A DNA stretch of 64,000 nucleotides from Ignavibacteriota bacterium (GTDB lineage: Bacteria; Bacteroidota; Ignavibacteria; Kapaibacteriales; UBA2268), in assembly GCA_019637995.1 (NCBI GenBank), contig JAHBUQ010000002.1, positions 449,428 through 513,427 of the forward strand, written 5' to 3'. Position 1 is the stretch's first letter, and each line of letters begins with the position of its first letter. The translations under genes and the position numbers were made by a program. Positions 7,853 through 57,200 of this stretch are shown one piece after another. The notes below the pieces were generated by a model, which saw only the letters and a list, made by a program, of their open reading frames with translations, was not told the DNA's origin and did no database searches.

Positions 7853-10800
7853 TCAAACCCACCAACGCAAGACGCTCTGCCGGAATAAATCCAACAGAGC
7901 GTCTGCCTATTAGTCGTCTCAGCACCTGAATTAATCAGGTCTAAGCATTTGGGTTATTTTACTACGTTGACGTTGCTTATAAGCATTACATCACCGCTGC
8001 GCAATACTACCTGATATACACCACTTGCGAGGTCTTTTGCATCTACGTTAAGTATGTGCTGACCGGCTGTCTGCATGCCGCTGTAAAGTCTTGCAACTTC
8101 TTTGCCGCTTGCATCTACAAGTGTGATTTCCACATTTGCTGACTGGCTCATTGTGTATTCGATTGTACTTTCGCTGCGTACAGGATTTGGTCTTGCCTGT
8201 CCGAGTTCGATTACGCCGCTTAAACCGGTTAGTGTTACTGTGCGTTCGTCACTGTATGAGAAACTGCCGTCACGGTCTAATGCTTTCAAACGGTAGATGT
8301 ATGTCTTGCCGTATTCTACGTTGTTATCTACTACAGGTCCGTAGTTTAATGTTACTGAGCTGTTGCCTGCTGCTTCCATTTCTGCTATCTTAGTAAAGAA
8401 GTTGCTACCCTGAGCTGCTTTCTCTACTTCGAAGCGGGATGTATTTAGCTCGCTTGCTGTTGCCCAGCTGATATCTACTCTCTTGCCGGCTGCTTTTGCA
8501 TCGAAGCTTAAGAGTTCTACAGGTACAACTGTACCGTCGTTTCTTTCCATAAAGTCGAAGCTGGCACGAAGTACTGTTTCGATATCTGCAAAGTGACGCC
8601 AGTCTATACCAAGATATACTACGTTTGAAGTAAGTGTTGTAGTTGCAATACCGCCGATTCTTGCTGCATCCGGCCATTCAGGGTTCTGTACGCTGTTGTA
8701 ACGGAATGCCATCTGGCTGATACCGTTTCCGGTATTGACGATGTTCATTAATGCAGGCTGTGGATACATATCTCCGGCTACGCCTGTTGCCATTACTTCC
8801 ATTACTACATCACGTCCTACTGCTATACCTGTTACATTACGACCGCTGTAGTTGCTGCCTGCTCCAAGTGGATTACCTGGATGACGGTATTCTCCACGAA
8901 GGATGTTGGTTACATATACTTCGTCTGCATCGTCTATGTTGACGTTGTTTCTTACCATTTCTTCACTGCCGATAAGAAGGTTTTTCTTCTCTGATACATT
9001 ACCTGCTTCTACGAAGTTTGTGAGATTGAGTTTTTCAAGACGGCTTAATGTCTTGTTGTGACCATCTGACCAAATCATTGAACGATAAATTGTATAGTCT
9101 ACGTTGCGTGGTTCCCAGCCATAACGGTTGAATAAGTCAAAGTCGTAACGTGCTGCTATAAGGTCGATTTCCCAGTTAAGCTGCTTCATACCTTCTTTGA
9201 TTTGTTCGTAGTTTAAGCCATAAGCAAGTTCATCTGCTGTTGGTGTTACGCCCGCTGCAAAGTGCTGCTGGTTGCTGACCAAGAAACGGATACCACTGCG
9301 CTGTATATAGAAACGTGAGATCTTTTCTGTTGCGTTGTTTGAGTTGAACTCATCAGGATCTGTACTTACTACTATACGGTAGCGTGGAGTTACGTTTGCT
9401 TCCATTCCGAGGAACTGTGAAGGTACGGAATAGTTCTGGTTGCGTAAGTCGTTGTATGTTTCAGGTACGAAGTCATTGCCGATACCGTCACCGATATTGA
9501 AGCTGACTTCCAGGTTTTCTGTTGCATCTAAGTCTATTTGACGCTCTACTGGACCAAATGCTAAGGCAAATGTTCCGTTTGGCATTTCGCGATAGATGTT
9601 GACATAAAGTTTCTTGTTGAAGACAGGCATATTACCGCTGTTGCGTACTATGGCTTTTACTTCTACAGGAGCTGTGGTCATTAAGTATTCGGCATCGCTG
9701 AACATACCATCTGTTGCACGGTAAGTACCGGGTTCGGTTATTACAAGCATTTCTGCATCGTGGTTGTAAAGTGCACCATTGAATTCTACTGCACCGATGT
9801 CATATCTGCCACCTGCTACACCACGGATATTACCATAAATGTCATGTGTTACTTCGTCTAATCTTTCACCGCGACGGGTTAGGACTGAACCTTTTGTATT
9901 TGTACGCAAACGGATTTCTTCTGGATAGCTACCCATAAAGTAATGGTCATTGATGAAGTTACCGGTTGAGATTGAGTTAAGTTCGCTCTTGGTTGCCATC
10001 TGCCACTGTGTTAAAGTACGGTATTCGTTACGGGCTCCCGTTTCGATTACGCGGGTCTTGAAGTCTGTGTAGATGTGACGGTATGCTGAGATGTTTGCGT
10101 TACCGAACCAGTATGCGTTACGGTCTGCTACAAGACCGTCTTTTTCAGGATAGTCGCCATGATAGAAGATACCTGAAGCTACTTCATTGCCTGCATTTAC
10201 TGTTGCATCATTTACTGCGATTGCATTATTGAGCAAATGTAATCCGCGTGCTTGCTGTATGCCGATACCTGCTACATTTGAGGCATTATTTATACCATCT
10301 TCTGTGATAAGGATTGTATTGTTGGCAATGGTTGAGCTGCGGATGAAGTAGTCTGCATAGTTTGGTGTAATCATACGGGCTACAGGATCTGCTACTTTTA
10401 GGTTACGCTGTGTCAGCATGTGAATACCCGCACGCATTGTATTTGCGTTCTGTGCGTTGAGTTTCCACATTGCATTGTTCATTACATTGATATTGTCTTC
10501 GACAGGAGGGAATACTCTGAATTCTGTTCCCACCTGATATTTGTTGGCGTTCTGATCTACTAAGATACCATATACTGCCTGGTTACCGCGTACGTTGTGG
10601 ATTGCGTTTCCGTCAATATTGAGGTCATAGTTATTGTAGCCAAGGAAGTTTTGGGTTGCATTACCACCTGCGATAATACCTGCTGCAAATGCTCCGCCGT
10701 CACCTTTGACATCAAAGATTACGTTGTTCTTTACATTTGCTTTTGCTTCGTTACCTACGACTACACCTGCGCCGGATACGTTGTAAATCTTGTTGCCTTC

Positions 10801-29719: not shown

Positions 29720-32700
29720 TTATTGTTCAATTAATCGGAAACCGCCGACAACAACACTGAAATTCTTAATAGTTTTGGCGCCATTTGGAGCTGTAATTAC
29801 AGCTATCAATGCCTGGCTTTGTATGCGTTGTCTGTTTCGGGTCAGAAGATCCCATACCTCAACTGCGTGACGGTCACGAGTACCTTCATTGTTATACTCA
29901 TCATGATTCAAAGTTGTAATCAAATCACCTGCTACTGTATAGATTTCAATTGTACAGACAGGAGGCAATTTAGAGAAGAACAATTTAGAATCATAAGGTG
30001 ACCTGACCGCCTGATGAGTGATATAATATGGATTCGGAGAAATCTGAATCTGGTCCATCATATCATCTGTAAGGAAGTTGGCATCTTTTTCTTGCGGACT
30101 TACAACTGCAAGCACCTGAGCACCCGGCATCGGAAGCCCTAATGCACCGCCATAAGTCTTAAGATAAATCTTGTCACCTGCTTTGAAGTCTTGAGCAGTC
30201 CAAATATTGTAATTAGCCTGAGCTTTATCGAACTCAAAGCCCCCCCAAATTCTCCACTGGTTCGGATAATCAGAAATAAAGTACAAACCAGCGACATTAA
30301 TTACATTCATAAAGTCAATAGTATCTTTACCATCAACTGATACACCTGTCTTGTAATATCTTCCCTGCAATCCTGTAAATGAATTAGCATTTCCGCGGGA
30401 ACCAAGACCATCTACCGGTCTTGCAAACTGCCTTCTGAGACGTGGATTATTTGATTCAGAACGACTTACAGGCATAGTAGGTGTAGGAAATGTAACATAA
30501 CCAATTGCATAAGAGTTAAACTTACCAATGAAATCATTTGAAGCTAAATCGTTAGGAGCCAAGTTTAAAGGAGAAGGAAATAATCTCGTAGTATAAAATG
30601 TAAATTGAAATCCATCCCTAATAGTTCTTCCTTCAATCAATGGCAAATTCATGTGAGTAACTTCAAGAGGATATCTCACTGGAACTGAGTCAAGCCCGTT
30701 GCCGGTTGGACGTAAATACTCAATGATATTTCTCATTCTCATATTGAGATACGGAACATTGAATGTATTGGACGCTTTTGCTTCATCATAAGAAAGTGTG
30801 ACTTGCTCATTGTCACCGGGAAGGAATTCTAATTCATATATACCGGGACCATTATTAAAGCTGGCATCAATATTCTGATAAGTCGCAAAATCAAAAGCAA
30901 CAGGTTGTGTCAAAAGAACCTTATCCAGCAGACCGCTTGTTATTCTGTTGTATCCGTCTGAAAGGGGATGCACATAAGTATCAGCAGTAACACCTTGTGC
31001 AAATTCAACCGTATCGGCTCTAAGTCTTCCGGCAAATTGCTGAAGTGTAAAGTCAAAACTGAAACCTAAGATGCCATAAGCATTTTGAGTCCAGCTATTT
31101 GTATAGCAATAGCCCGGATAAGAAAAATCGCCGGAGAAAAATCTGCCTGTACGTGTAATAAAATCTTTTTTATTGCCTACACCAAAATCATAGAAACCAC
31201 CGGTTTCAGGATTTACGTAAGGAATTCCTGTGTCAGGATCTGTAATTACTGAGTCAGAAAGCACAAATGATGCAGCGTTTTCAGTAAAGAGATTTGTGAA
31301 GCTAAATTGGCAAGGTTGAGCCTCATAGCTTAAAAGACCACGATAAAGCGTATCGCCGGTTTTTCGGCTTGTCATAGTAGCAAGAGTACGGTAAAGCCCC
31401 ACTCTACCGGGGACAGTACCTGACAAAGTCAACTGTATTTGATTCCAGAATGGCTCTAAATTCAGCTCTAATGTATCACCTTCGAATCTTTGCATAACTC
31501 TGTCATTATCAACTGCGAAAAATCTCCAGTTATAAAGACCACCCATTCTGGCTGAGTCAACATAAATAACTTCAAGCTCAGGTAATTTTCCGGCTGGCGC
31601 AGCTGTTGGGAGTGCAGTAACAAAGTTTGACAGACCGGGTGAACCAATATTTACTTTACTTTCAGTTGGTTGCGAGTAGTCACCTTCATCGTAAGCAAGT
31701 ACTTTGTAATGATAATCAATATTATTCATAAGTCTTTCAGTGATAGTCGGATCGGGATCATTCCTTACCCAACCGTCACGATTATCATCACCAATATCAG
31801 TAAATGTTCTGTTATTAGTTATCCATCTCATATAAGGAGCAATAACTTTTTCTCTTGTGTGAAGTCTTCCTTCATAAGCGGGGAATTCCATTCTCGTTTG
31901 AGAATTTTTTACCCATGTAATGATAGAATCTTTTACTTCAACAAGGTGTAGTGAATCCTTCACTGTCAAAGGAATGATCGGGTCTCTTTGGATATCAGTC
32001 ATTCTTCTTGGCACCCAGGCTTCTATAAGTGTCATTGGCTGACCGTTTATATCACCGGATTTAATTGTATTTCTTAGATATATTGAGTCTGTAGTTATTC
32101 TGACAAGAACATCCCTACCCGTTGCAGGATCTAAAACAGGCATTCTTTCGCCTACAACCCAATCAGCAAAGTTTGAATCAAGGTAATCAAAATATGACTG
32201 ACTTCTTTGAAGAACTTTTCTTTCGTAGAAAATTGGATTGAATTTTAATAAACTTCGGTTCAAATAAGCAACACCTGCCATTACACTATCAAAAATATAA
32301 TGACGACGCTGCGGTGATGTACTCCAAACCAAACTTGAAGGTTGTGCGCCACCGTAATTTACATTAATTGTACCATTGTTAGCAACTGATACCCTTTCAT
32401 CTTCTTCAAGAATTCTCCACCAGTCCTGTCCCCATGGAGAGTAGAACATAGCAGTATCAACAAAGGCAATACCGCCACGAGCATTTGAGAATCCCTGCAT
32501 ACCGATACCACGTCTTACAACGCGCAATGCCATAGAGTCAATAATTGCACCGGACGCATCAACATAAGGACCGATTACTTCAAAATCATCAATAAGCGGC
32601 ATAGTCATATCATCATTGTCAGGACCACCTCTGAACTCAGTTTTAACAAAAGGTGTTCTCAATGGGTATTGAGCGACAAGTCTCCAGCCCAAAGGACCAC

Positions 32701-34465
32701 GCCCAAGTGGAAATTCAGAACTGCCTTGTTCGATATTTGGAGAAAAGCCATCAAGATTAGCTCTGCGAGCACGGTATAATCTGTAACCCATAAAGTCCAG
32801 TCCCTGCTCATCAATATCGCTTGACATTTCTGAAGTGCTGTCCCACATAATTGTAACACCATTATTGAGCGGAACAACTCTGCGAATTACAGCTCTGTCA
32901 GGTGGAGTAGGAGCGCGGAAGTTATTGTCATAAACCTGTTGGGCAAATTTATCTTTTCTTTCAAGTTCAGCCATGTCTTCACAAGTACCATCAGCTTCAC
33001 CGCCTTTTGCGGTATTTGCAAGAATGATACCAACTACTACTCTGGCAGTATCACCGGGACGCATGTGGAATTCACCCGTTGCCATCATAAAGCGTTTGTC
33101 ACCGGGACCTGTATCGCCTTCCTTAATTCTTGATGAGATAAATTGGTATCTTTCTTCGTCCTCTTTAGGATCGAATTCGATTGACCAGTTACGGAAAGTT
33201 ACAAGACCAAGCTGTGATGATGTGTTATAAAAAGCACTGTCCTTACGAACAAAATTTGGAAGAGTTGTATCTCTATTTGGGTCATAAGGTCTTAATGTAC
33301 GAATAGTATCAATTCTGATTAAATTTCCATCATCATCTCTGATTTCATTAATTGTAATATCATAAAACTTCTGAACTGCAGGAGATTCCAAGAAGTCGAA
33401 ACCCAAATATCCGAATCCATGTCCGAATTCACCGCGGTCAGTATTTGTCCACTGAACAGCCATGTTAAGTGTTGTATCACAATCATAGAATTTGGCGCGG
33501 TCATTACCGGCACCAAAGCTTGCCTGCAAGGCACGTGCAATATCAACGTCCATTACCGGTGCAAGCCAGCAATTCCAGAGCGTGTCAGAAGAATAATTTG
33601 TGAGCTCATATTTAATAAAAATAAAGTCACGATAATCGCCAAAACCCCATGAATAAATCATCTGGTCAACCTGCAATCTCAACGGATATCCTCTTTCACG
33701 ACGAGCTGCAACACCACCTTCATAGAAGTTGAGGTCAGTATCTTTGTAAGTAGAGAAAATATCTTCACCTGAAATAAAAGCAGGTCCTTTACTGTAAGTT
33801 GCTGTATTTCTAAGTTCGACCTGAGGCACAAACTTGCCGAAATAACGGTCAACTTTTAAAGTATCTTCGATTCTGGTAGAGGAGTCCCAAATGGGCCAGT
33901 TAAATGTGTGAGCTGAGATAATAGGCTCACCTGTACCGGGGTTAAAATCAGTTGAGAAGTAAGTTCTGTAACGAAGTAATTCGTCGTTATTTACTAACTC
34001 TTCATCAGGAACTTCCTTATTGCCCGGACCACCGTAGTTAATTCTACCGGGTACGAACCAGCCTTTACCTGAGTTTGGATTATAAGTAATTGTAACATAA
34101 CTTACTGTGTCTTTTTGAACTTCTCTGAATTTTTTGGTACCAAACCAAAATCCACCGGCGAATAAATACTGGTTCTGTGAGCCTCTGGGCCAGAAACCGC
34201 CGCCTCGTCCACGTGCAATATCGAACCCGAAAATACCATAGTTTGTAGTATAAAACTGCAAATTACTAACGGTATTCTGCTGAAGGTCGAAAACGCCTGA
34301 ATATGTCCTGTTTTGCAATTTATTGAGGTCAAATTCCACTTTTGAGTCCTGACCATCCTCAGGGGTATTTATGGTAGCCGCCTGAAGATTATAAGACCAA
34401 AGGACAGTTAGCATAAAAGCTACTGCAAAGAGCGGGCTTCTGACCTTATTGATTAATCTTATCAT
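29720..34465 (-). CDS. very large secreted protein with T9SS-like C-terminus
   Basis: A 1581-residue protein not recognised by family. Signal peptide 1-29 (FAVAFMLTVLWSYNLQA). It has no membrane helix after that, few Cys, and is dominated by aromatic- and Asp-rich beta segments (for example YLFAGGFWFGTKK, FGHGFGYLGFDFL). Near the middle FnIII-like elements recur (PPDRAVIRRVVPLNNGVTIM, then WDSTSEMS). The last 110 residues start with QISPNPYYITHQAVRSPYDS and contain TIEIYTVAGDLITTLNH, which resembles a T9SS/FlgD-like sorting fold, but the usual short ending is longer (FSVVVGGFRLIEQ). GAGGA lies 8 nt before ATG 34465. It lies between a TonB-dependent receptor and a PorV-like barrel; surface exposure is inferred. 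Confidence 0.8.
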   Translation of the reverse strand: MIRLINKVRSPLFAVAFMLTVLWSYNLQAATINTPEDGQDSKVEFDLNKLQNRTYSGVFDLQQNTVSNLQFYTTNYGIFGFDIARGRGGGFWPRGSQNQYLFAGGFWFGTKKFREVQKDTVSYVTITYNPNSGKGWFVPGRINYGGPGNKEVPDEELVNNDELLRYRTYFSTDFNPGTGEPIISAHTFNWPIWDSSTRIEDTLKVDRYFGKFVPQVELRNTATYSKGPAFISGEDIFSTYKDTDLNFYEGGVAARRERGYPLRLQVDQMIYSWGFGDYRDFIFIKYELTNYSSDTLWNCWLAPVMDVDIARALQASFGAGNDRAKFYDCDTTLNMAVQWTNTDRGEFGHGFGYLGFDFLESPAVQKFYDITINEIRDDDGNLIRIDTIRTLRPYDPNRDTTLPNFVRKDSAFYNTSSQLGLVTFRNWSIEFDPKEDEERYQFISSRIKEGDTGPGDKRFMMATGEFHMRPGDTARVVVGIILANTAKGGEADGTCEDMAELERKDKFAQQVYDNNFRAPTPPDRAVIRRVVPLNNGVTIMWDSTSEMSSDIDEQGLDFMGYRLYRARRANLDGFSPNIEQGSSEFPLGRGPLGWRLVAQYPLRTPFVKTEFRGGPDNDDMTMPLIDDFEVIGPYVDASGAIIDSMALRVVRRGIGMQGFSNARGGIAFVDTAMFYSPWGQDWWRILEEDERVSVANNGTINVNYGGAQPSSLVWSTSPQRRHYIFDSVMAGVAYLNRSLLKFNPIFYERKVLQRSQSYFDYLDSNFADWVVGERMPVLDPATGRDVLVRITTDSIYLRNTIKSGDINGQPMTLIEAWVPRRMTDIQRDPIIPLTVKDSLHLVEVKDSIITWVKNSQTRMEFPAYEGRLHTREKVIAPYMRWITNNRTFTDIGDDNRDGWVRNDPDPTITERLMNNIDYHYKVLAYDEGDYSQPTESKVNIGSPGLSNFVTALPTAAPAGKLPELEVIYVDSARMGGLYNWRFFAVDNDRVMQRFEGDTLELNLEPFWNQIQLTLSGTVPGRVGLYRTLATMTSRKTGDTLYRGLLSYEAQPCQFSFTNLFTENAASFVLSDSVITDPDTGIPYVNPETGGFYDFGVGNKKDFITRTGRFFSGDFSYPGYCYTNSWTQNAYGILGFSFDFTLQQFAGRLRADTVEFAQGVTADTYVHPLSDGYNRITSGLLDKVLLTQPVAFDFATYQNIDASFNNGPGIYELEFLPGDNEQVTLSYDEAKASNTFNVPYLNMRMRNIIEYLRPTGNGLDSVPVRYPLEVTHMNLPLIEGRTIRDGFQFTFYTTRLFPSPLNLAPNDLASNDFIGKFNSYAIGYVTFPTPTMPVSRSESNNPRLRRQFARPVDGLGSRGNANSFTGLQGRYYKTGVSVDGKDTIDFMNVINVAGLYFISDYPNQWRIWGGFEFDKAQANYNIWTAQDFKAGDKIYLKTYGGALGLPMPGAQVLAVVSPQEKDANFLTDDMMDQIQISPNPYYITHQAVRSPYDSKLFFSKLPPVCTIEIYTVAGDLITTLNHDEYNNEGTRDRHAVEVWDLLTRNRQRIQSQALIAVITAPNGAKTIKNFSVVVGGFRLIEQ

Positions 34466-34510: not shown

Positions 34511-37500
34511 TTAGAACCTAAACATCATACCAAAGAAAATTGTTCTTGGAATCTGGAAGTTACCTCTGAATGATATAACTTTATCAATATATCTGAAATA
34601 ACTTTCAAAAACTTCAGCCTGGGTTACAAGTCCGTTACCGTCAAAATCAGCCATCTCATTATATAATCTGTCGCCATAAGCATCATACTGGGTAGATGCA
34701 AATGTTGAAGGATTTTCATAAGTTGGAGTTTTGTAATATGTTATACTGTTAAAGTCACCAACCTGACGGTCAAATGTACGTCCATCATCAAGCGGGTCAC
34801 TTGTTGTAGCATATACGCCTGTTACTACGGTACGATTGAGGAGGTTATTAACGTCAACAAATAGCTGAATCATAGTATTTCCGGCACTTTCACCAAAGAT
34901 ACTCTTTAATTGTATAGTTCTTTGTATTCTTGCATCCAAGCCCCAGAATGACGGCTGACGGTCTGAGTTTACTTCAGAAAGAGGAGTTCCGTTTCTGTCA
35001 GTTCTTGTATAAGGAACACCGGTTCTGTAAGTAGATGTAATAATGATGTCTGAATTTTCTAATACTTTTAATCCACCAATTGAAGGACCCTGACCATCTA
35101 ACCAGTAAAATCTGAAGTTACCTTTAAAAAAGTGACGAATGTCATTAGGCATAGGATATTCAGATAGAGGGAAAGCAGGTAAATTTGTATAAGGGTCAAT
35201 AGTTAAACCATAATTAGAATTTGGACCGGAAGCTGTACCTGCCAAATAACCTAAATTATAATTAATATCAAATGCATAATTTTCAGTTGGCAGAGGTGTC
35301 TTACGGAAATTAAGCTCAAACCCGCGTGATGTACCATATTCTGTCACATCTCTTTGACTGTATGGGTCCGGTACAGCAGGAACATATACTATCCCTACTT
35401 TATTATATTCATCCTTATAAAATGCAGTTGCCGAAAATACAAGGTCATCAGTCAAACCAAGACTATACTCGATTTCATACTGATTTGTTCTCTGAGCATC
35501 CATATTGGGATTTCCAAGAATTGATGCTCCACGAATTATATCAACTGCAAAGGCATCATAAAGATACTGAAGCATCGGCATCTGGAAGTACATACCGTAA
35601 GAAAGTCTGATATTGGATGTTTCTGTTATTGGATAAGCAACGTTAACTCTCGGGCTGACCTGCATCTTAACAGAAGCATCAGCAAAGCCCGAATCCGCTC
35701 TGATTGAAACGAATGGAATCTGATTAACGCGATACTGAGCATTAGGGTCAAAGAAGTCAAATCTCAAACCAGGGCTGAATATAATCCCTTTGTATGAAAT
35801 CTGGTCCTGAACATACATACCAAGTTTCATTGGATTATAAGGACGATTTGTTCTTTCTCTTACTACTTCATTATCAGCATACAAGTTACCACCGAATCTA
35901 CCATCATCGAATACATCAAAAAACGGGTTACCATCGTAAGGGTTGCTGTTTGAGTGTTTGTACATCTCAAGAATCTGTCCCTGGAAACCTGCTTTAAAGT
36001 TGTGTTCGAATTCGCCTGTTTTTAGATACTGGTTGAATGAACCGTCAATTGTCCAGTTGCTGCCATCACGGAAACTAAAACCGCCGGAACCTGATGTTGC
36101 AAAACCAACATTAGGAATACCCCAAGGGTTATAAGAACCTGATGCATTTGCCTGACCTTCATAGTATCCTGTCAAAGGATTTCTTTGTGGAAGGTTAAGT
36201 CTTAAAAATCCATCAGAAGTAAAAGTATTTTCAATTAATTGTGTGTATTGGTCAACAATTTTGTCTTTACCCGGTATAAGCTGATTACCCATAACCATAT
36301 AGTTGTCAGAAGGAGTCTGCATATCCCAGCCTGAAAAGAATCCGGGACCGTCAGTGCTTGTTCTTCTGCTTGAGTAGTCATTATTTGTAGATTGTGAGAT
36401 ACGTACTTCATAAAAGCTTGTTGGGCTTAATGTATGAGTAAGTAAAGCAAAATAATTTATTACGAAATTATCAAGAACATTTTGTTTGAAGAGTCTTTCT
36501 TCCATCCCGTTAGTAACAGGGGATCCATCTTCATTTGTTCTTAATAAGTAATTTCCGTTTTCATTTTTGTCATAAACATAGCCTTCGCGGTTAGCATAAA
36601 GCCAAGCCCAGCCTGAGAATTCAAAGCTGGAAACACCGTAAGAACCTCCAAGAGTCAATGAAACTCCATCAGCTATTGCAAATTTCAAGCGTCCGGTTAG
36701 GTTTCTTACCCAAGAGCCGTTGTCAGGTCTTTGACCAATATTATTACCCCATGGGTCATAAATTTCATAGCTGGCATTACGGTTAGCTTCATGAAAATAC
36801 CTTCCTGTAAGGTAAAAAGTATTTCCTTTTGCCATAAGCGGAAGAGGACCACCTGTACCGAACTCAAAAGTGTGCTCGTTCTGTCCCTGCCATTTAGCTC
36901 CTTCACCGACTTCAACAGCTCTGAAACGGCTACCGTCTCTTTCAATTCTGGTTCCGGTTGACTGACTTCCGAACAAAGCCGGAACATCAGTTCTCCAACG
37001 CACCCAGCCATCATATTTATTATCACGTCCTGTCTGTACAACAGAGTTCACAACTCCTGAAGTAACATCACCATACTCAGCAGAGAAGCCACCTTTGAGA
37101 ACCTGAACTTCTTCAGTTGCAAATGATGAAACCATTGGGAAGTAAGCAGCTCCGGATGCACCGAAGCCACCGGTAAATGCATTACCTACTGATATACCGT
37201 CAATTCTTACGTCAGTTTCATCAGCTCTACCGCCACGAATAGAAAAACCTGAACCTGACTGAAGAACACCGGCACTTAAACTGATAACAGCTCCTATACC
37301 TTCACGGGCAGTATTGATGATGTCCTCATTTGAACGCTTGTCCATTGAGCCCTGCTTGGTGTGATTTACAATTTCACGCTGAGCAACTACAACAAGTTCT
37401 TCAGTTCGAACTGAAGCGTCTCTCATTGTTACATCAAGTGTAGCTGTTAAACTTGCAGATATTCTCACCTGTTTTCGAACTGTAGTTCTACCGGTGAAGG

Positions 37501-37729
37501 TAAATCTGACTGTGTATTCCCCGGCGACAATACCGGTTATAACGTAGCTACCGTCATTCTCACGAACAGCGGCGCCTTTCTGAGTACCCTCGACAAAAAC
37601 CGAGGCTCCTCGTAAGCCCTTACCTTCCTCATCAACGACCTTACCTCTCAAGGTTCCATAAACCTGTGAAAAGGTCATCGAGGGTATAGCTATGAGCCCT
37701 AAAAATAAAAGTACAAAAAACTTATGCAT
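34511..37729 (-). CDS. TonB-dependent receptor with carboxypeptidase-regulatory-like N-domain
   Basis: Outer-membrane receptor of 1072 residues. ATG 37729 is chosen for the AGGAG 8 nt upstream and the signal peptide MHKFFVLLFLGLIAIPSMTF; a longer frame adds 16 residues without support. Domains: carboxypeptidase-regulatory-like (about 22-105, GTLRGKVVDEEGKGLRGASV), a TonB-box-like ELVVVAQR, plug (about 130-240, GFSIRGGRADETDVRIDGIS; VQVLKGGFSAEYGD), then a large barrel ending in FFGMMFRF. A perfect EF-hand-type loop DFDGNGLVTQAE sits at 1028-1039, just before the last strand. It heads the operon with the 1581-residue protein and the PorV-like barrel. Substrate unknown. Confidence 0.92.
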   Translation of the reverse strand: MHKFFVLLFLGLIAIPSMTFSQVYGTLRGKVVDEEGKGLRGASVFVEGTQKGAAVRENDGSYVITGIVAGEYTVRFTFTGRTTVRKQVRISASLTATLDVTMRDASVRTEELVVVAQREIVNHTKQGSMDKRSNEDIINTAREGIGAVISLSAGVLQSGSGFSIRGGRADETDVRIDGISVGNAFTGGFGASGAAYFPMVSSFATEEVQVLKGGFSAEYGDVTSGVVNSVVQTGRDNKYDGWVRWRTDVPALFGSQSTGTRIERDGSRFRAVEVGEGAKWQGQNEHTFEFGTGGPLPLMAKGNTFYLTGRYFHEANRNASYEIYDPWGNNIGQRPDNGSWVRNLTGRLKFAIADGVSLTLGGSYGVSSFEFSGWAWLYANREGYVYDKNENGNYLLRTNEDGSPVTNGMEERLFKQNVLDNFVINYFALLTHTLSPTSFYEVRISQSTNNDYSSRRTSTDGPGFFSGWDMQTPSDNYMVMGNQLIPGKDKIVDQYTQLIENTFTSDGFLRLNLPQRNPLTGYYEGQANASGSYNPWGIPNVGFATSGSGGFSFRDGSNWTIDGSFNQYLKTGEFEHNFKAGFQGQILEMYKHSNSNPYDGNPFFDVFDDGRFGGNLYADNEVVRERTNRPYNPMKLGMYVQDQISYKGIIFSPGLRFDFFDPNAQYRVNQIPFVSIRADSGFADASVKMQVSPRVNVAYPITETSNIRLSYGMYFQMPMLQYLYDAFAVDIIRGASILGNPNMDAQRTNQYEIEYSLGLTDDLVFSATAFYKDEYNKVGIVYVPAVPDPYSQRDVTEYGTSRGFELNFRKTPLPTENYAFDINYNLGYLAGTASGPNSNYGLTIDPYTNLPAFPLSEYPMPNDIRHFFKGNFRFYWLDGQGPSIGGLKVLENSDIIITSTYRTGVPYTRTDRNGTPLSEVNSDRQPSFWGLDARIQRTIQLKSIFGESAGNTMIQLFVDVNNLLNRTVVTGVYATTSDPLDDGRTFDRQVGDFNSITYYKTPTYENPSTFASTQYDAYGDRLYNEMADFDGNGLVTQAEVFESYFRYIDKVISFRGNFQIPRTIFFGMMFRF

Positions 37730-38027
37730 AGTGGCAACTCCTTTTAATGAACTATTACCAATTTTTTTAATTTGCAAAATAAATTTTGAAACTTTATCTG
37801 AATTTTATCGTTATAAATAATAAAGAGGTGTCAGCATTGATAAAATGCTTTATGCAAGTACAGGAGATTTATAGACTTTTGCCTATTTAAAAATATCAAT
37901 ATGTACCAACTTTTCTCTTTATCACCTATATTTAGTTTCAGTTAATTTCGCGTTAAATCAAATTACCAAAAAACAAATGTCAAATATAATAAGAAAATTT
38001 CAAATAACCGTCATATTTTTTAAATTT
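37730..38027. other. intergenic region upstream of the receptor operon
   Basis: About 300 bp of AT-rich sequence between the anti-sigma-like gene and the receptor gene, both on the minus strand. It probably carries the receptor promoter, but I see no well-spaced TTTG/TAnnTTTG pair, which would be consistent with use of the neighbouring alternative sigma factor. No hairpin or small gene stands out. Confidence 0.4.
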
Positions 38028-39359
38028 TTATAAATTCAATTGAATACCGTAAACAAATCCGTAACTTGAAACAGTAGAAATTTTATTTTCAAGCAACGGT
38101 GTTTTAACCATAAAAAACCTTCCCTCAGCACCCAAAGTAAAAGCAATACTACTTAAAATGTTGTATCTTGCAGTAATTCTACCAAGTCCGAGTGGACCGT
38201 CATTTGTGGCACCAAACCCGATTCTGCCGTTCAACGAAAATCTGTCGTAATCGTAAATATTATTGTCAAAGAAAGCCATACCCCAGAAAAACTGTTGCTG
38301 CCGCTCAAGTCTGACAGGCAGATTTACTAAAGTACCGCCACCTGAGCCACCATCACCAATTGGCTCATTAATAGAAAATCCTGATGAGTGTCCGGCTGAG
38401 CCGCCTACAGGAATTATTTTGATATAGTCATAATTAAACTCAGTGATACCAAATTCAATTCCTAATACAGATTTACTGCTTAGGCTGTAACCAATACTTT
38501 GAGACATATTTATTATGTGTGAATTTCCACTTGTCTGAATGCCGGCTCTTGAGAAATCACGACTTACAATTGTATTCAGCTGAATTGAAGTAACTTCAGG
38601 ACCTGTAAATCCAAAGTTAACCTGTGGGATATTACTTATTGCCAAATTGCTGTTATTACCTGAATTTACCTGAGCAACATGAATTTTGTCAGACATCATG
38701 TTCAAAGGCTGATTATCTTCCGAAGGCTTAATTTTTTCAGCTGCGATATTGCTTTCAGTCGTCTCTGTAGTAATATGTGAAATATCTGATAAAAACTCTT
38801 CGATTTCAGGTATAAGTTCTGCAATTTCCTGACTGTCATTATCAAGTAATACTATAGAATTTTCATCCGACTGAGTAGTTTCAATATTTGTAAAATCAGA
38901 TTTAACCGACTGAAATGATGTATTTTTCGATGATAAAGCAGTCTCATTGCTTGAAACAATTATTTCAGCAGGTGATTCAATCATTGAAATATCAATTATT
39001 CTTGGGTATTCTTTATCTCCAAAGTTCAAATATGATATCAGAGCAAAAAATGACACAACTGCAGCAAGTGTTGCAATTCTTGCAGGTAGTTTAATCGCTT
39101 TTTTCACAGGCTGAGGAGCAGCCATTACTTCCGTAGTAGAGAATATTCTCATCAAAACAGCTTCTTCAGTTTGCTTCAATAAATTTTTAGGAACTTGAAT
39201 ACTGTCTCTGTCATCAAGCAAATCCATGTGAAGTTCGACTGAGCTGTCAAATTTTTCTTTTGCGTAAGGATTTTCCTTTAGAATTGAGCGGAGCTTGGCA
39301 TCCTCAAGAGTTGTCAGTTCCCCGTCAATATATTTCGATATGAGCATTTCAAGACTCAT
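38028..39359 (-). CDS. membrane anti-sigma-like protein with beta-rich C-terminal domain
   Basis: A 443-residue protein overlapping the sigma gene by 11 bp. Residues 1-60 (LISKYIDGELTTLEDAKLRS, then ILKENPYAKEKF) have the layout of anti-sigma N-domains, but without the zinc-binding His/Cys cluster. One membrane helix follows at about 93-112 (RIATLAAVVSFFALISYLNF). A Ser/Thr/Glu-rich linker runs to about 230. Residues 240-443 look like an outer-membrane barrel (SIGYSLSSKSVLGIEFGITE, FSLNGRIGFGATND, IAFTLGAEGRFFMV, ending YGFVYGIQLNL). I recognise no named family for the whole. A cytoplasmic sigma-binding domain joined to a periplasmic or outer-membrane sensor is the inferred topology. Confidence 0.75.
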   Translation of the reverse strand: MSLEMLISKYIDGELTTLEDAKLRSILKENPYAKEKFDSSVELHMDLLDDRDSIQVPKNLLKQTEEAVLMRIFSTTEVMAAPQPVKKAIKLPARIATLAAVVSFFALISYLNFGDKEYPRIIDISMIESPAEIIVSSNETALSSKNTSFQSVKSDFTNIETTQSDENSIVLLDNDSQEIAELIPEIEEFLSDISHITTETTESNIAAEKIKPSEDNQPLNMMSDKIHVAQVNSGNNSNLAISNIPQVNFGFTGPEVTSIQLNTIVSRDFSRAGIQTSGNSHIINMSQSIGYSLSSKSVLGIEFGITEFNYDYIKIIPVGGSAGHSSGFSINEPIGDGGSGGGTLVNLPVRLERQQQFFWGMAFFDNNIYDYDRFSLNGRIGFGATNDGPLGLGRITARYNILSSIAFTLGAEGRFFMVKTPLLENKISTVSSYGFVYGIQLNL

Positions 39360-39915
39360 TTAATTCCTTCACTAATGGTTTTAAAATCTTTCTAAGAATA
39401 AGTCTTGCTCTATGGACACGTACTTTAGCAAGTGACAGTTCGATACCGAGTGTTTCAGCAATTTCCTGATAAGACATATCTTCATACTCTCTCAATAGTA
39501 ATGCTTCTCTCATAGGAACAGGCAACTCAGCTATAGCCTTTTCAATTTGCTCTTTGGTGCTGAAATCCATTTTTTCGTTATCATCTGATTTATGGTGATA
39601 ACTTTCGTCAAAAGATGTCTGTTCCTTTTTAGTTCGGATGTAATTAAGGCACGTATTTCTAGCGATAGTAAAAAGCCAAGCTCCAAAATTGTCACCTTTG
39701 AATTGATGGCGGTTTTCGTATATTCTTACGAATACTTCCTGAAATGCATCATTTGCATTCTCTTCCTCTCCGAGCATTCTTAGACAGAACCTGTAAACTT
39801 TTTGAGCGTAATTGTTGTATAATATCTGAAAAGCTTCAGCACTGCCCTTTACCATTGCTTCTTCGGCATTGTGCTTTATCTCTTCTTCCGATATTTCTTT
39901 TCTCTTAAAAATCAT
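39349..39915 (-). CDS. ECF-type RNA polymerase sigma factor
   Basis: Group 4 sigma factor of 188 residues. Region 2 is seen in AFQEVFVRIYENRHQF and GAWLFTIARNTCLNYIRT (the -10 reading helices), region 4 in LPVPMREALLLREYEDMSYQ followed by EIAETLGIELSLAKVRVHRA, a helix-turn-helix for the -35 element. Length and spacing are normal. The following gene is a membrane anti-sigma-like protein with overlapping start, the usual arrangement for a sigma/anti-sigma pair; the receptor operon 300 bp downstream is the likely target, which is inference. Confidence 0.95.
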   Translation of the reverse strand: MIFKRKEISEEEIKHNAEEAMVKGSAEAFQILYNNYAQKVYRFCLRMLGEEENANDAFQEVFVRIYENRHQFKGDNFGAWLFTIARNTCLNYIRTKKEQTSFDESYHHKSDDNEKMDFSTKEQIEKAIAELPVPMREALLLREYEDMSYQEIAETLGIELSLAKVRVHRARLILRKILKPLVKELNES

Positions 39916-40237
39916 CGCTCAAATAATTTTTGGTTTTGCAACTTATTCAAACACTATTACACATTGAATGCTCAAAAAGTTACAATTTATTTTTACTTTT
40001 TTTAAAATTATTACAAAATCTTTAACTTTTTGTTAAAGAGACATGAATACAAAAATATTATTTTTTAGTGAGATAAGTTAATTTTAAATGGATTTTTATT
40101 ATTAATATTTGATTATTTATTATTAATATTGAATTTATTGGGAAAAATTCCCATAATATTTGCAATTATTGTTAAAATATTACTTTTTTATATACGATAT
40201 ATAAGGTATGTACAACAATTCTCCAAAAGGTGATGCA
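39916..40237. other. divergent intergenic region, sigma factor / CBS protein
   Basis: AT-rich, about 320 bp. CAAAAATA at 40050-40057 is a TAnnTTTG match for the minus strand, without a TTG element at 19-21 nt. It must hold promoters for the sigma operon and the CBS gene. Nothing else was recognised. Confidence 0.4.
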
Positions 40238-54283: not shown

Positions 54284-57200
54284 TCAAACCCACCAACGCA
54301 AGACGCTCTGCCGGAATAAATCCAACAGAGCGTCTGCCTATTAGTCGTCTCAGCACCTGAATTAATCAGGTCTAAGCATTTGGGTTATTTTACTACGTTG
54401 ACGTTGCTTATAAGCATTACATCACCGCTGCGCAATACTACCTGATATACACCACTTGCGAGGTCTTTTGCATCTACGTTAAGTATGTGCTGACCGGCTG
54501 TCTGCATGCCGCTGTAAAGTCTTGCAACTTCTTTGCCGCTTGCATCTACAAGTGTGATTTCCACATTTGCTGACTGGCTCATTGTGTATTCGATTGTACT
54601 TTCGCTGCGTACAGGATTTGGTCTTGCCTGTCCGAGTTCGATTACGCCGCTTAAACCGGTTAGTGTTACTGTGCGTTCGTCACTGTATGAGAAACTGCCG
54701 TCACGGTCTAATGCTTTCAAACGGTAGATGTATGTCTTGCCGTATTCTACGTTGTTATCTACTACAGGTCCGTAGTTTAATGTTACTGAGCTGTTGCCTG
54801 CTGCTTCCATTTCTGCTATCTTAGTAAAGAAGTTGCTACCCTGAGCTGCTTTCTCTACTTCGAAGCGGGATGTATTTAGCTCGCTTGCTGTTGCCCAGCT
54901 GATATCTACTCTCTTGCCGGCTGCTTTTGCATCGAAGCTTAAGAGTTCTACAGGTACAACTGTACCGTCGTTTCTTTCCATAAAGTCGAAGCTGGCACGA
55001 AGTACTGTTTCGATATCTGCAAAGTGACGCCAGTCTATACCAAGATATACTACGTTTGAAGTAAGTGTTGTAGTTGCAATACCGCCGATTCTTGCTGCAT
55101 CCGGCCATTCAGGGTTCTGTACGCTGTTGTAACGGAATGCCATCTGGCTGATACCGTTTCCGGTATTGACGATGTTCATTAATGCAGGCTGTGGATACAT
55201 ATCTCCGGCTACGCCTGTTGCCATTACTTCCATTACTACATCACGTCCTACTGCTATACCTGTTACATTACGACCGCTGTAGTTGCTGCCTGCTCCAAGT
55301 GGATTACCTGGATGACGGTATTCTCCACGAAGGATGTTGGTTACATATACTTCGTCTGCATCGTCTATGTTGACGTTGTTTCTTACCATTTCTTCACTGC
55401 CGATAAGAAGGTTTTTCTTCTCTGATACATTACCTGCTTCTACGAAGTTTGTGAGATTGAGTTTTTCAAGACGGCTTAATGTCTTGTTGTGACCATCTGA
55501 CCAAATCATTGAACGATAAATTGTATAGTCTACGTTGCGTGGTTCCCAGCCATAACGGTTGAATAAGTCAAAGTCGTAACGTGCTGCTATAAGGTCGATT
55601 TCCCAGTTAAGCTGCTTCATACCTTCTTTGATTTGTTCGTAGTTTAAGCCATAAGCAAGTTCATCTGCTGTTGGTGTTACGCCCGCTGCAAAGTGCTGCT
55701 GGTTGCTGACCAAGAAACGGATACCACTGCGCTGTATATAGAAACGTGAGATCTTTTCTGTTGCGTTGTTTGAGTTGAACTCATCAGGATCTGTACTTAC
55801 TACTATACGGTAGCGTGGAGTTACGTTTGCTTCCATTCCGAGGAACTGTGAAGGTACGGAATAGTTCTGGTTGCGTAAGTCGTTGTATGTTTCAGGTACG
55901 AAGTCATTGCCGATACCGTCACCGATATTGAAGCTGACTTCCAGGTTTTCTGTTGCATCTAAGTCTATTTGACGCTCTACTGGACCAAATGCTAAGGCAA
56001 ATGTTCCGTTTGGCATTTCGCGATAGATGTTGACATAAAGTTTCTTGTTGAAGACAGGCATATTACCGCTGTTGCGTACTATGGCTTTTACTTCTACAGG
56101 AGCTGTGGTCATTAAGTATTCGGCATCGCTGAACATACCATCTGTTGCACGGTAAGTACCGGGTTCGGTTATTACAAGCATTTCTGCATCGTGGTTGTAA
56201 AGTGCACCATTGAATTCTACTGCACCGATGTCATATCTGCCACCTGCTACACCACGGATATTACCATAAATGTCATGTGTTACTTCGTCTAATCTTTCAC
56301 CGCGACGGGTTAGGACTGAACCTTTTGTATTTGTACGCAAACGGATTTCTTCTGGATAGCTACCCATAAAGTAATGGTCATTGATGAAGTTACCGGTTGA
56401 GATTGAGTTAAGTTCGCTCTTGGTTGCCATCTGCCACTGTGTTAAAGTACGGTATTCGTTACGGGCTCCCGTTTCGATTACGCGGGTCTTGAAGTCTGTG
56501 TAGATGTGACGGTATGCTGAGATGTTTGCGTTACCGAACCAGTATGCGTTACGGTCTGCTACAAGACCGTCTTTTTCAGGATAGTCGCCATGATAGAAGA
56601 TACCTGAAGCTACTTCATTGCCTGCATTTACTGTTGCATCATTTACTGCGATTGCATTATTGAGCAAATGTAATCCGCGTGCTTGCTGTATGCCGATACC
56701 TGCTACATTTGAGGCATTATTTATACCATCTTCTGTGATAAGGATTGTATTGTTGGCAATGGTTGAGCTGCGGATGAAGTAGTCTGCATAGTTTGGTGTA
56801 ATCATACGGGCTACAGGATCTGCTACTTTTAGGTTACGCTGTGTCAGCATGTGAATACCCGCACGCATTGTATTTGCGTTCTGTGCGTTGAGTTTCCACA
56901 TTGCATTGTTCATTACATTGATATTGTCTTCGACAGGAGGGAATACTCTGAATTCTGTTCCCACCTGATATTTGTTGGCGTTCTGATCTACTAAGATACC
57001 ATATACTGCCTGGTTACCGCGTACGTTGTGGATTGCGTTTCCGTCAATATTGAGGTCATAGTTATTGTAGCCAAGGAAGTTTTGGGTTGCATTACCACCT
57101 GCGATAATACCTGCTGCAAATGCTCCGCCGTCACCTTTGACATCAAAGATTACGTTGTTCTTTACATTTGCTTTTGCTTCGTTACCTACGACTACACCTG

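Follow-up and report, generated by a model that had tools for sequence, protein, structure and literature searches.

Carrying a signal from the outer membrane to a sigma factor normally takes several proteins, as in the FecIRA-type systems, where a distinct TonB-dependent receptor serves as the outer-membrane component (PMC9249621). One-polypeptide versions of such a relay are known from a few cases in the Bacteroides group. Among these are the Dma proteins of gut Bacteroides (PMC13088901): Dma1 and Dma2 combine an N-terminal anti-sigma domain, one transmembrane helix, a long disordered tether and a C-terminal beta-barrel, with a sigma gene of group ECF21 adjacent, and deleting a protein of this layout gives a phenotype that needs the cognate sigma factor. 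Another is the unusual anti-sigma factor M0N98_03760 of an EcfO/Reo-type pair from Phocaeicola vulgatus, reported in 2022 (PMC9308784). It is encoded downstream of its sigma gene and predicted to span the periplasm with a C-terminal outer-membrane barrel, and its loss frees the sigma factor. Hence, the suggestion of the original prediction that a one-protein link from the outer membrane to a sigma factor would be a new signalling design does not hold; the design is already known from these Bacteroides-group cases. Two further groups of systems invite comparison. The class I anti-sigma domain (ASDI) proteins RseA, RskA, RsiW and ChrR share a three-helix bundle with a fourth helix and an optional zinc motif, often followed by a single transmembrane helix, with no outer-membrane-type barrel on a long tether described for them; no more than 6% of the ECFs in Bacteroidetes come with a domain of this class (PMC7406223). 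In Porphyromonas gingivalis, PorXY-SigP links an ECF sigma factor to type IX secretion (T9SS), with SigP working alongside a two-component system and driving the secretion components (PMC4800418, PMC7712824).

The gene pair considered here lies in a stretch of 64,000 nucleotides from an Ignavibacteriota bacterium (the window). The first gene (39349..39915, minus strand) codes for an ECF sigma factor of 188 aa, in which both the region 2 and region 4 domains are clear (Pfam Sigma70_r2, 3.8e-19; Sigma70_r4_2, 9.5e-16); its best NCBIfam matches, TIGR02985 and NF058625, fall below the cut-off. The second gene (38028..39359, minus strand), which starts inside the sigma gene with an overlap of 11 nt, codes for a predicted dual-membrane anti-sigma factor of 443 aa, and the window copy of this partner has no significant Pfam match. 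Like FecIRA-type systems, the pair is predicted to connect an outer-membrane signal to an ECF sigma factor; unlike them, it joins barrel and inhibitor in one protein.

The N-terminal region of the partner (residues 1-75; 39135..39359, minus strand) is predicted to be a cytoplasmic four-helix domain of the anti-sigma type, with helices at 3-11, 17-29, 31-53 and 58-75 modeled by AF2 in the full protein at a pLDDT of about 81-95. The window protein contains no cysteine, and thus no zinc site, and the Hx3Cx2C motif is absent from all 32 homologues compared. Its weak matches to anti-sigma models cover residues 6-111 and are all below the curated cut-offs (zf-HC2, 12.4 bits against a cut-off of 22.2). 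Within the family, 23 of 32 members give weak, sub-threshold zf-HC2 matches when E values up to 1 are admitted, the lowest being 1.2e-4, and NCBIfam anti-sigma models match 7 and 4 of them. The ASDI layout of a three-helix bundle and a fourth helix ahead of a membrane segment is present in the model (helices within 3-75, then a transmembrane helix at 91-110), and zinc is optional in that class (PMC7406223); the predicted domain hence resembles class I anti-sigma domains in its helix layout, with a tether and barrel added. The single inner-membrane helix (39030..39089, minus strand) coincides with a hydropathy peak at 95-113 and is found at the same position in the homologues.

This helix is followed by a Ser/Asn/Glu-rich periplasmic tether (residues 111-254; 38598..39029, minus strand), which is predicted to be disordered over its roughly 145 residues (pLDDT below 50). 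By a hydropathy estimate the tether measures 119-252 residues in 32 homologues, with a median of 158; when extended, it is long enough to span a periplasm. The remaining residues (255-443; 38031..38597, minus strand) are modeled as an eight-stranded beta-barrel of the outer-membrane type. Folded alone from a 32-sequence alignment, the domain reaches a mean pLDDT of 83.4, with most of its eight strands at 94-98, and the full-length model likewise has eight strands, at 259-442. A search of PDB structures with the whole model, which in effect tested the barrel only, returned OprF (Z 16.7), NspA (16.6), OmpA (15.9) and PagL (15.5) at the top, with a designed membrane barrel, a Legionella porin and an OmpA model in the same range; the best barrel matches have Z of 14.8-16.7 and an rmsd of about 2.4-3.7 over 120-150 residues. 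Three of the inter-strand connections are turns (4, 2 and 4 residues) that share one side of the barrel; the other four, on the opposite side, are loops of 10, 24, 3 and 7. Since this split by side is that of outer-membrane barrels, both ends of the barrel are predicted to lie on the short-turn, periplasmic side. Seven of the eight strands have one face of clearly higher hydrophobicity; the invariant residues G300, E302, G304, R379, G383, G410 and G438 all fall on the Gly/charged face. The hydrophobic/polar alternation exceeds that of shuffled sequences (p=0.0026 for family means, 0.025 for the window sequence). The C-terminus carries a YGxx(hydrophobic)x(F/L) motif in 30 of 32 members and ends in F, L or Y in 31. 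By sequence, no Pfam barrel family, OMP_b-brl and OMP_b-brl_2 included, matches the C-domain in any of the 32 members at E up to 1, no NCBIfam model matching these members names the barrel, and a PDB sequence search with the family profile returned nothing relevant; a paralogue in the same genome (L120) matches OMP_b-brl at 2.6e-4, below the cut-off. Taken together, the fold matches, the side-split loops, the face alternation, the C-terminal motif and the tether length make insertion of the predicted domain into the outer membrane likely. Thus, the observation behind the original prediction is confirmed: the positions of both ORFs were correct, the region 2 and region 4 matches bear out the ECF sigma factor, and the partner has a predicted anti-sigma-type N-terminus without zinc ligands, the one membrane helix, the long linker and a barrel-like C-domain that is modeled as a transmembrane-type barrel and not as a beta-sandwich.

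Homologues of the partner are found in 40 of 60 related genomes, most of them full-length and all in the same family or order. A contig scan found no matches with the single protein as query; with the alignment as query it did find homologues. The alignments show conservation of the N-domain and C-domain and none of the linker, and the barrel is kept in all full-length members of the order-wide family. A sigma-sized ORF lies directly upstream, usually overlapping, in all 30 loci of a first set. In a named set of 33 loci, from MAGs mostly labeled Kapaibacterium (Bacteroidota in the NCBI taxonomy), Ignavibacteria or Bacteroidetes, an ECF gene is directly upstream in 32, 31 of which overlap the partner by 4-14 nt; the exception (L078) matched over the C-domain alone and appears to be the same contig as another locus (L015), which has the sigma gene. 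This order-wide synteny supports the pairing that had been predicted, and the architecture is far beyond chance. Two family members come from MAGs labeled Desulfobulbaceae and Bradyrhizobiaceae, which are probably misassigned bins.

The home genome encodes 19 ECF-type matches, seven of which, besides the window pair, are followed by a partner of 394-426 aa with one transmembrane helix at 86-110 and an outer-membrane-type tail. By HHalign this paralogue set is related to the window family over both the N-domain (97.7%, E 1e-11) and the barrel (97.2%, E 8e-11). Several of the paralogous pairs (L116-L121) are followed by lipoprotein-like genes. The regions upstream of five of their sigma genes (L116, L117, L119, L120 and L121) have similar TGT(C)TAT -10-like elements and different -35-like elements, as if each paralogous sigma factor might read its own promoter set. 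Outside the order, homologues of the N-domain mostly adjoin ECF genes, and these include small single-helix proteins that have no barrel (L100, L106, L112 and L113). The original prediction had counted barrel-less homologues with the same role against the design. Barrel-less homologues of the N-domain do exist beside ECF genes outside the order, but the design is not thereby refuted: because all full-length order-wide members keep the barrel, we read them as a sign of modularity. Split operons, in which sigma factor, anti-sigma factor and outer-membrane protein are encoded separately, occur at L114, L148 and L149, with barrel matches at 8e-5, 2e-9 and 4e-8; along with L101 and L102, these loci are three-gene sets in which the secreted or outer-membrane-type protein has a gene to itself, and neighboring genes often share a few bases. 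The barrel thus appears to be an add-on that exists unfused too. Such split operons fit the joining of a barrel to an anti-sigma factor, and the design may have been assembled more than once in this way.

As stand-ins for Dma1 and Dma2 we used barrel-bearing ECF partners from elsewhere in the phylum, with an ECF gene adjacent in all 20 of 20 loci. The window N-domain, with its four helices and weak zf-HC2 similarity, is unlike the short N-domains of these proteins (HHalign probability 0), and their barrels compare weakly, at 0.6% with the window family and 10.7% with its own-genome paralogues. In a sigma-factor tree, built from a short protein with biased sampling, the stand-in sigma factors make up a clade of their own (100/99); the window orthologues (100/98) and the own-genome paralogues (100/99) branch together, at moderate support (92/56). 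The same layout is thus found on two sigma lineages with different inhibitor domains, and an origin separate from the stand-in barrel-bearing partners is possible. Dma1 and Dma2 themselves share with the window family the single transmembrane helix, the long disordered tether and the C-terminal barrel behind what is, in the window family, a putative anti-sigma domain, as well as the adjacent ECF gene and the phylum Bacteroidota. They differ from it in that the window family occurs in Kapabacteria-type lineages and its predicted targets are T9SS cargo rather than NigD1 or polysaccharide-utilization loci. M0N98_03760 is likewise set apart by its source in Bacteroidales, its induction by an antibacterial toxin and the association of its active sigma factor with longer O-antigen chains; the freeing of the sigma factor, however, also belongs to our best explanation of the window family. 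That an entire order beyond the class Bacteroidia has this layout, on a different sigma clade and with an inhibitor domain that looks unrelated, suggests that the design recurs in Bacteroidota. What is new with respect to the known cases is the distinct lineage, the number of such pairs in a single genome and a regulon, open to testing, that connects to type IX secretion. We are doubtful of the fuller proposal that these proteins make up a second lineage of membrane-bridging anti-sigma factors, with a class I domain and an origin separate from the Bacteroides Dma proteins, whose barrels would monitor the cell surface and feed back on T9SS cargo through about eight parallel channels per cell.

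Nearly all sigma genes of the family are preceded by a conserved promoter pattern, TGTAAC(T)4-5-N12-TGTCT. In the window, the predicted autoregulatory ECF promoter TGTAACTTTTTGAGCATTCAATGTGTAA (39957..39984, minus strand), located by this pattern 69 nt before the sigma start, has TGTAA as its second element. TGTAAC is found upstream of 29 of the 32 sigma genes against 1.3 expected, a figure inflated by related sequences; the second element TGTCT stands at a fixed distance, and of 28 aligned sites 27 have TGT at +23. Five related genomes together hold 43 copies of the pattern, where the reversed control gives 12; in the home genome the corresponding counts are 9 and 3. Besides the one at the operon itself, home-genome copies lie ahead of four genes whose products carry T9SS type A tails (L207, L209, L211 and L212), of the gene for a VIT-domain secreted protein (L206) and of a 166-aa ORF that has a TonB receptor gene next to it downstream (L208). 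Two further copies, one inside a prmC-like gene (L210) and the other at C2:699291, in antisense orientation to a T9SS gene that it overlaps or adjoins, were discounted as probably due to chance. Four of eight promoter copies lying ahead of T9SS-tailed genes corresponds to p of about 2.5e-4 with at least 150 such genes among an assumed 3300, and to 1.8e-3 if there are 250, the 150 being a lower bound. The site also lies ahead of similar T9SS-tailed genes in the genomes G001, G002 and G026, and, among the sites recorded with that of the window (L206-L224), upstream of T9SS cargo and VIT-domain genes in several genomes. Because the promoter sits at the sigma gene itself, the sigma factor probably reads it, and the best reading of these sites is a regulon made up of the operon itself and of surface-protein genes, mainly T9SS cargo. 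As in PorXY-SigP, an ECF sigma factor would hence be linked to type IX secretion; here, however, the apparent targets are cargo genes, with the anti-sigma barrel as the predicted sensor.

We therefore favor, with a probability of roughly three in four, the reading that the two genes encode an ECF sigma factor together with an anti-sigma factor bridging both membranes, a regulator that acts on its own expression and controls the supply of surface proteins. The predicted four-helix domain would hold the sigma factor in the cytoplasm, the helix at 91-110 would anchor the partner in the inner membrane, the disordered tether would cross the periplasm, and the eight-stranded barrel would be inserted in the outer membrane, its two ends on the periplasmic side. 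Whatever changes there (a ligand, lost barrel assembly or an altered pull on the tether) would be relayed to the inner-membrane part, and the sigma factor would be freed, by analogy probably through stepwise proteolysis, to transcribe the operon that encodes it and a few genes for surface proteins, mainly T9SS cargo, from the candidate TGTAAC-T4/5-N12-TGTCT promoters. The protease step is assumed from other anti-sigma factors and from two M50 proteases of the home genome, a family present in all 14 control genomes. Counted against this reading are the absence of Pfam barrel matches in the 32 members, the lower-scoring match of the model to the soluble PsbO barrel, the smallness of the regulon and the two of nine promoter matches that are intragenic or antisense. 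The scheme also poses the puzzle of how the distal part of a polypeptide tied to the inner membrane comes to fold in the outer one.

A sub-case compatible with the favored reading is that the barrel acts as a sentinel rather than as a ligand receptor: BAM would have to fold every new copy, and where this failed an unfolded C-terminus would trigger proteolysis and sigma release. In E. coli, DegS is activated by the C-termini of unfolded outer-membrane proteins, and this precedent, the resemblance of the C-terminal motif to an outer-membrane assembly signal and the location of the invariant barrel residues on the Gly/charged face and near the C-terminus all speak for the idea. However, the long and variable loop 2 (320-343) would suit the sensing of a ligand too, and the presence of eight such paralogues in a single genome points to different inputs, so that we hold it tentatively, at somewhat below even odds. 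If the barrel were instead soluble and periplasmic, the partner would be an anti-sigma factor of the ordinary kind, confined to one membrane and equipped with a periplasmic sensor. The soluble eight-stranded barrel of PsbO does match the model, but at Z of about 11 against the 15-17 of outer-membrane barrels; this, together with the short turns on one side, the alternating strands with their conserved Gly/charged face and the C-terminal F, L or Y in 31 of 32 members, renders a soluble barrel improbable.

The remaining alternatives place the sensing or the partnership elsewhere, and we give each very little weight. That the partner is not an anti-sigma factor at all, the overlap merely marking a co-expression operon and the N-domain binding something else, could draw on the sub-threshold scores of the window protein against anti-sigma models. 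It sits poorly with the order-wide overlap with an ECF gene, and with the N-domain homologues beyond the order, which mostly lie beside ECF genes and include single-helix proteins of ordinary size. FecR-like cell-surface signalling would make an outer-membrane sensor of the TonB-dependent receptor with a CarboxypepD_reg domain that is encoded downstream on the same strand (34511-37777, minus strand), a similar gene being found downstream of the pair in the closest relatives. Yet neither the window protein nor the 32 members have a FecR or STN match, and at many loci the downstream gene varies (weak BNR-type matches or none) while the barrel is always kept; we set this possibility aside, as the domains are lacking and the receptor is not kept across loci. 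Also downstream on the same strand is a gene for a protein of 1581 aa that has no Pfam matches (29720-34465, minus strand).

Under the favored reading, the conserved promoter defines a regulon that can be tested and may tie outer-membrane sensing to type IX secretion. In the home genome, which measures 3.9 Mb, the T9SS type A sorting tail is matched at least 150 times, and for a genome of this size that is a large set of cargo. Two of the tailed ORFs lie in the window itself, near 7990-8190 and 54421-54621 (both minus strand); at 1927 and 1924 aa and with equal tail scores, they are possibly a duplicated pair.
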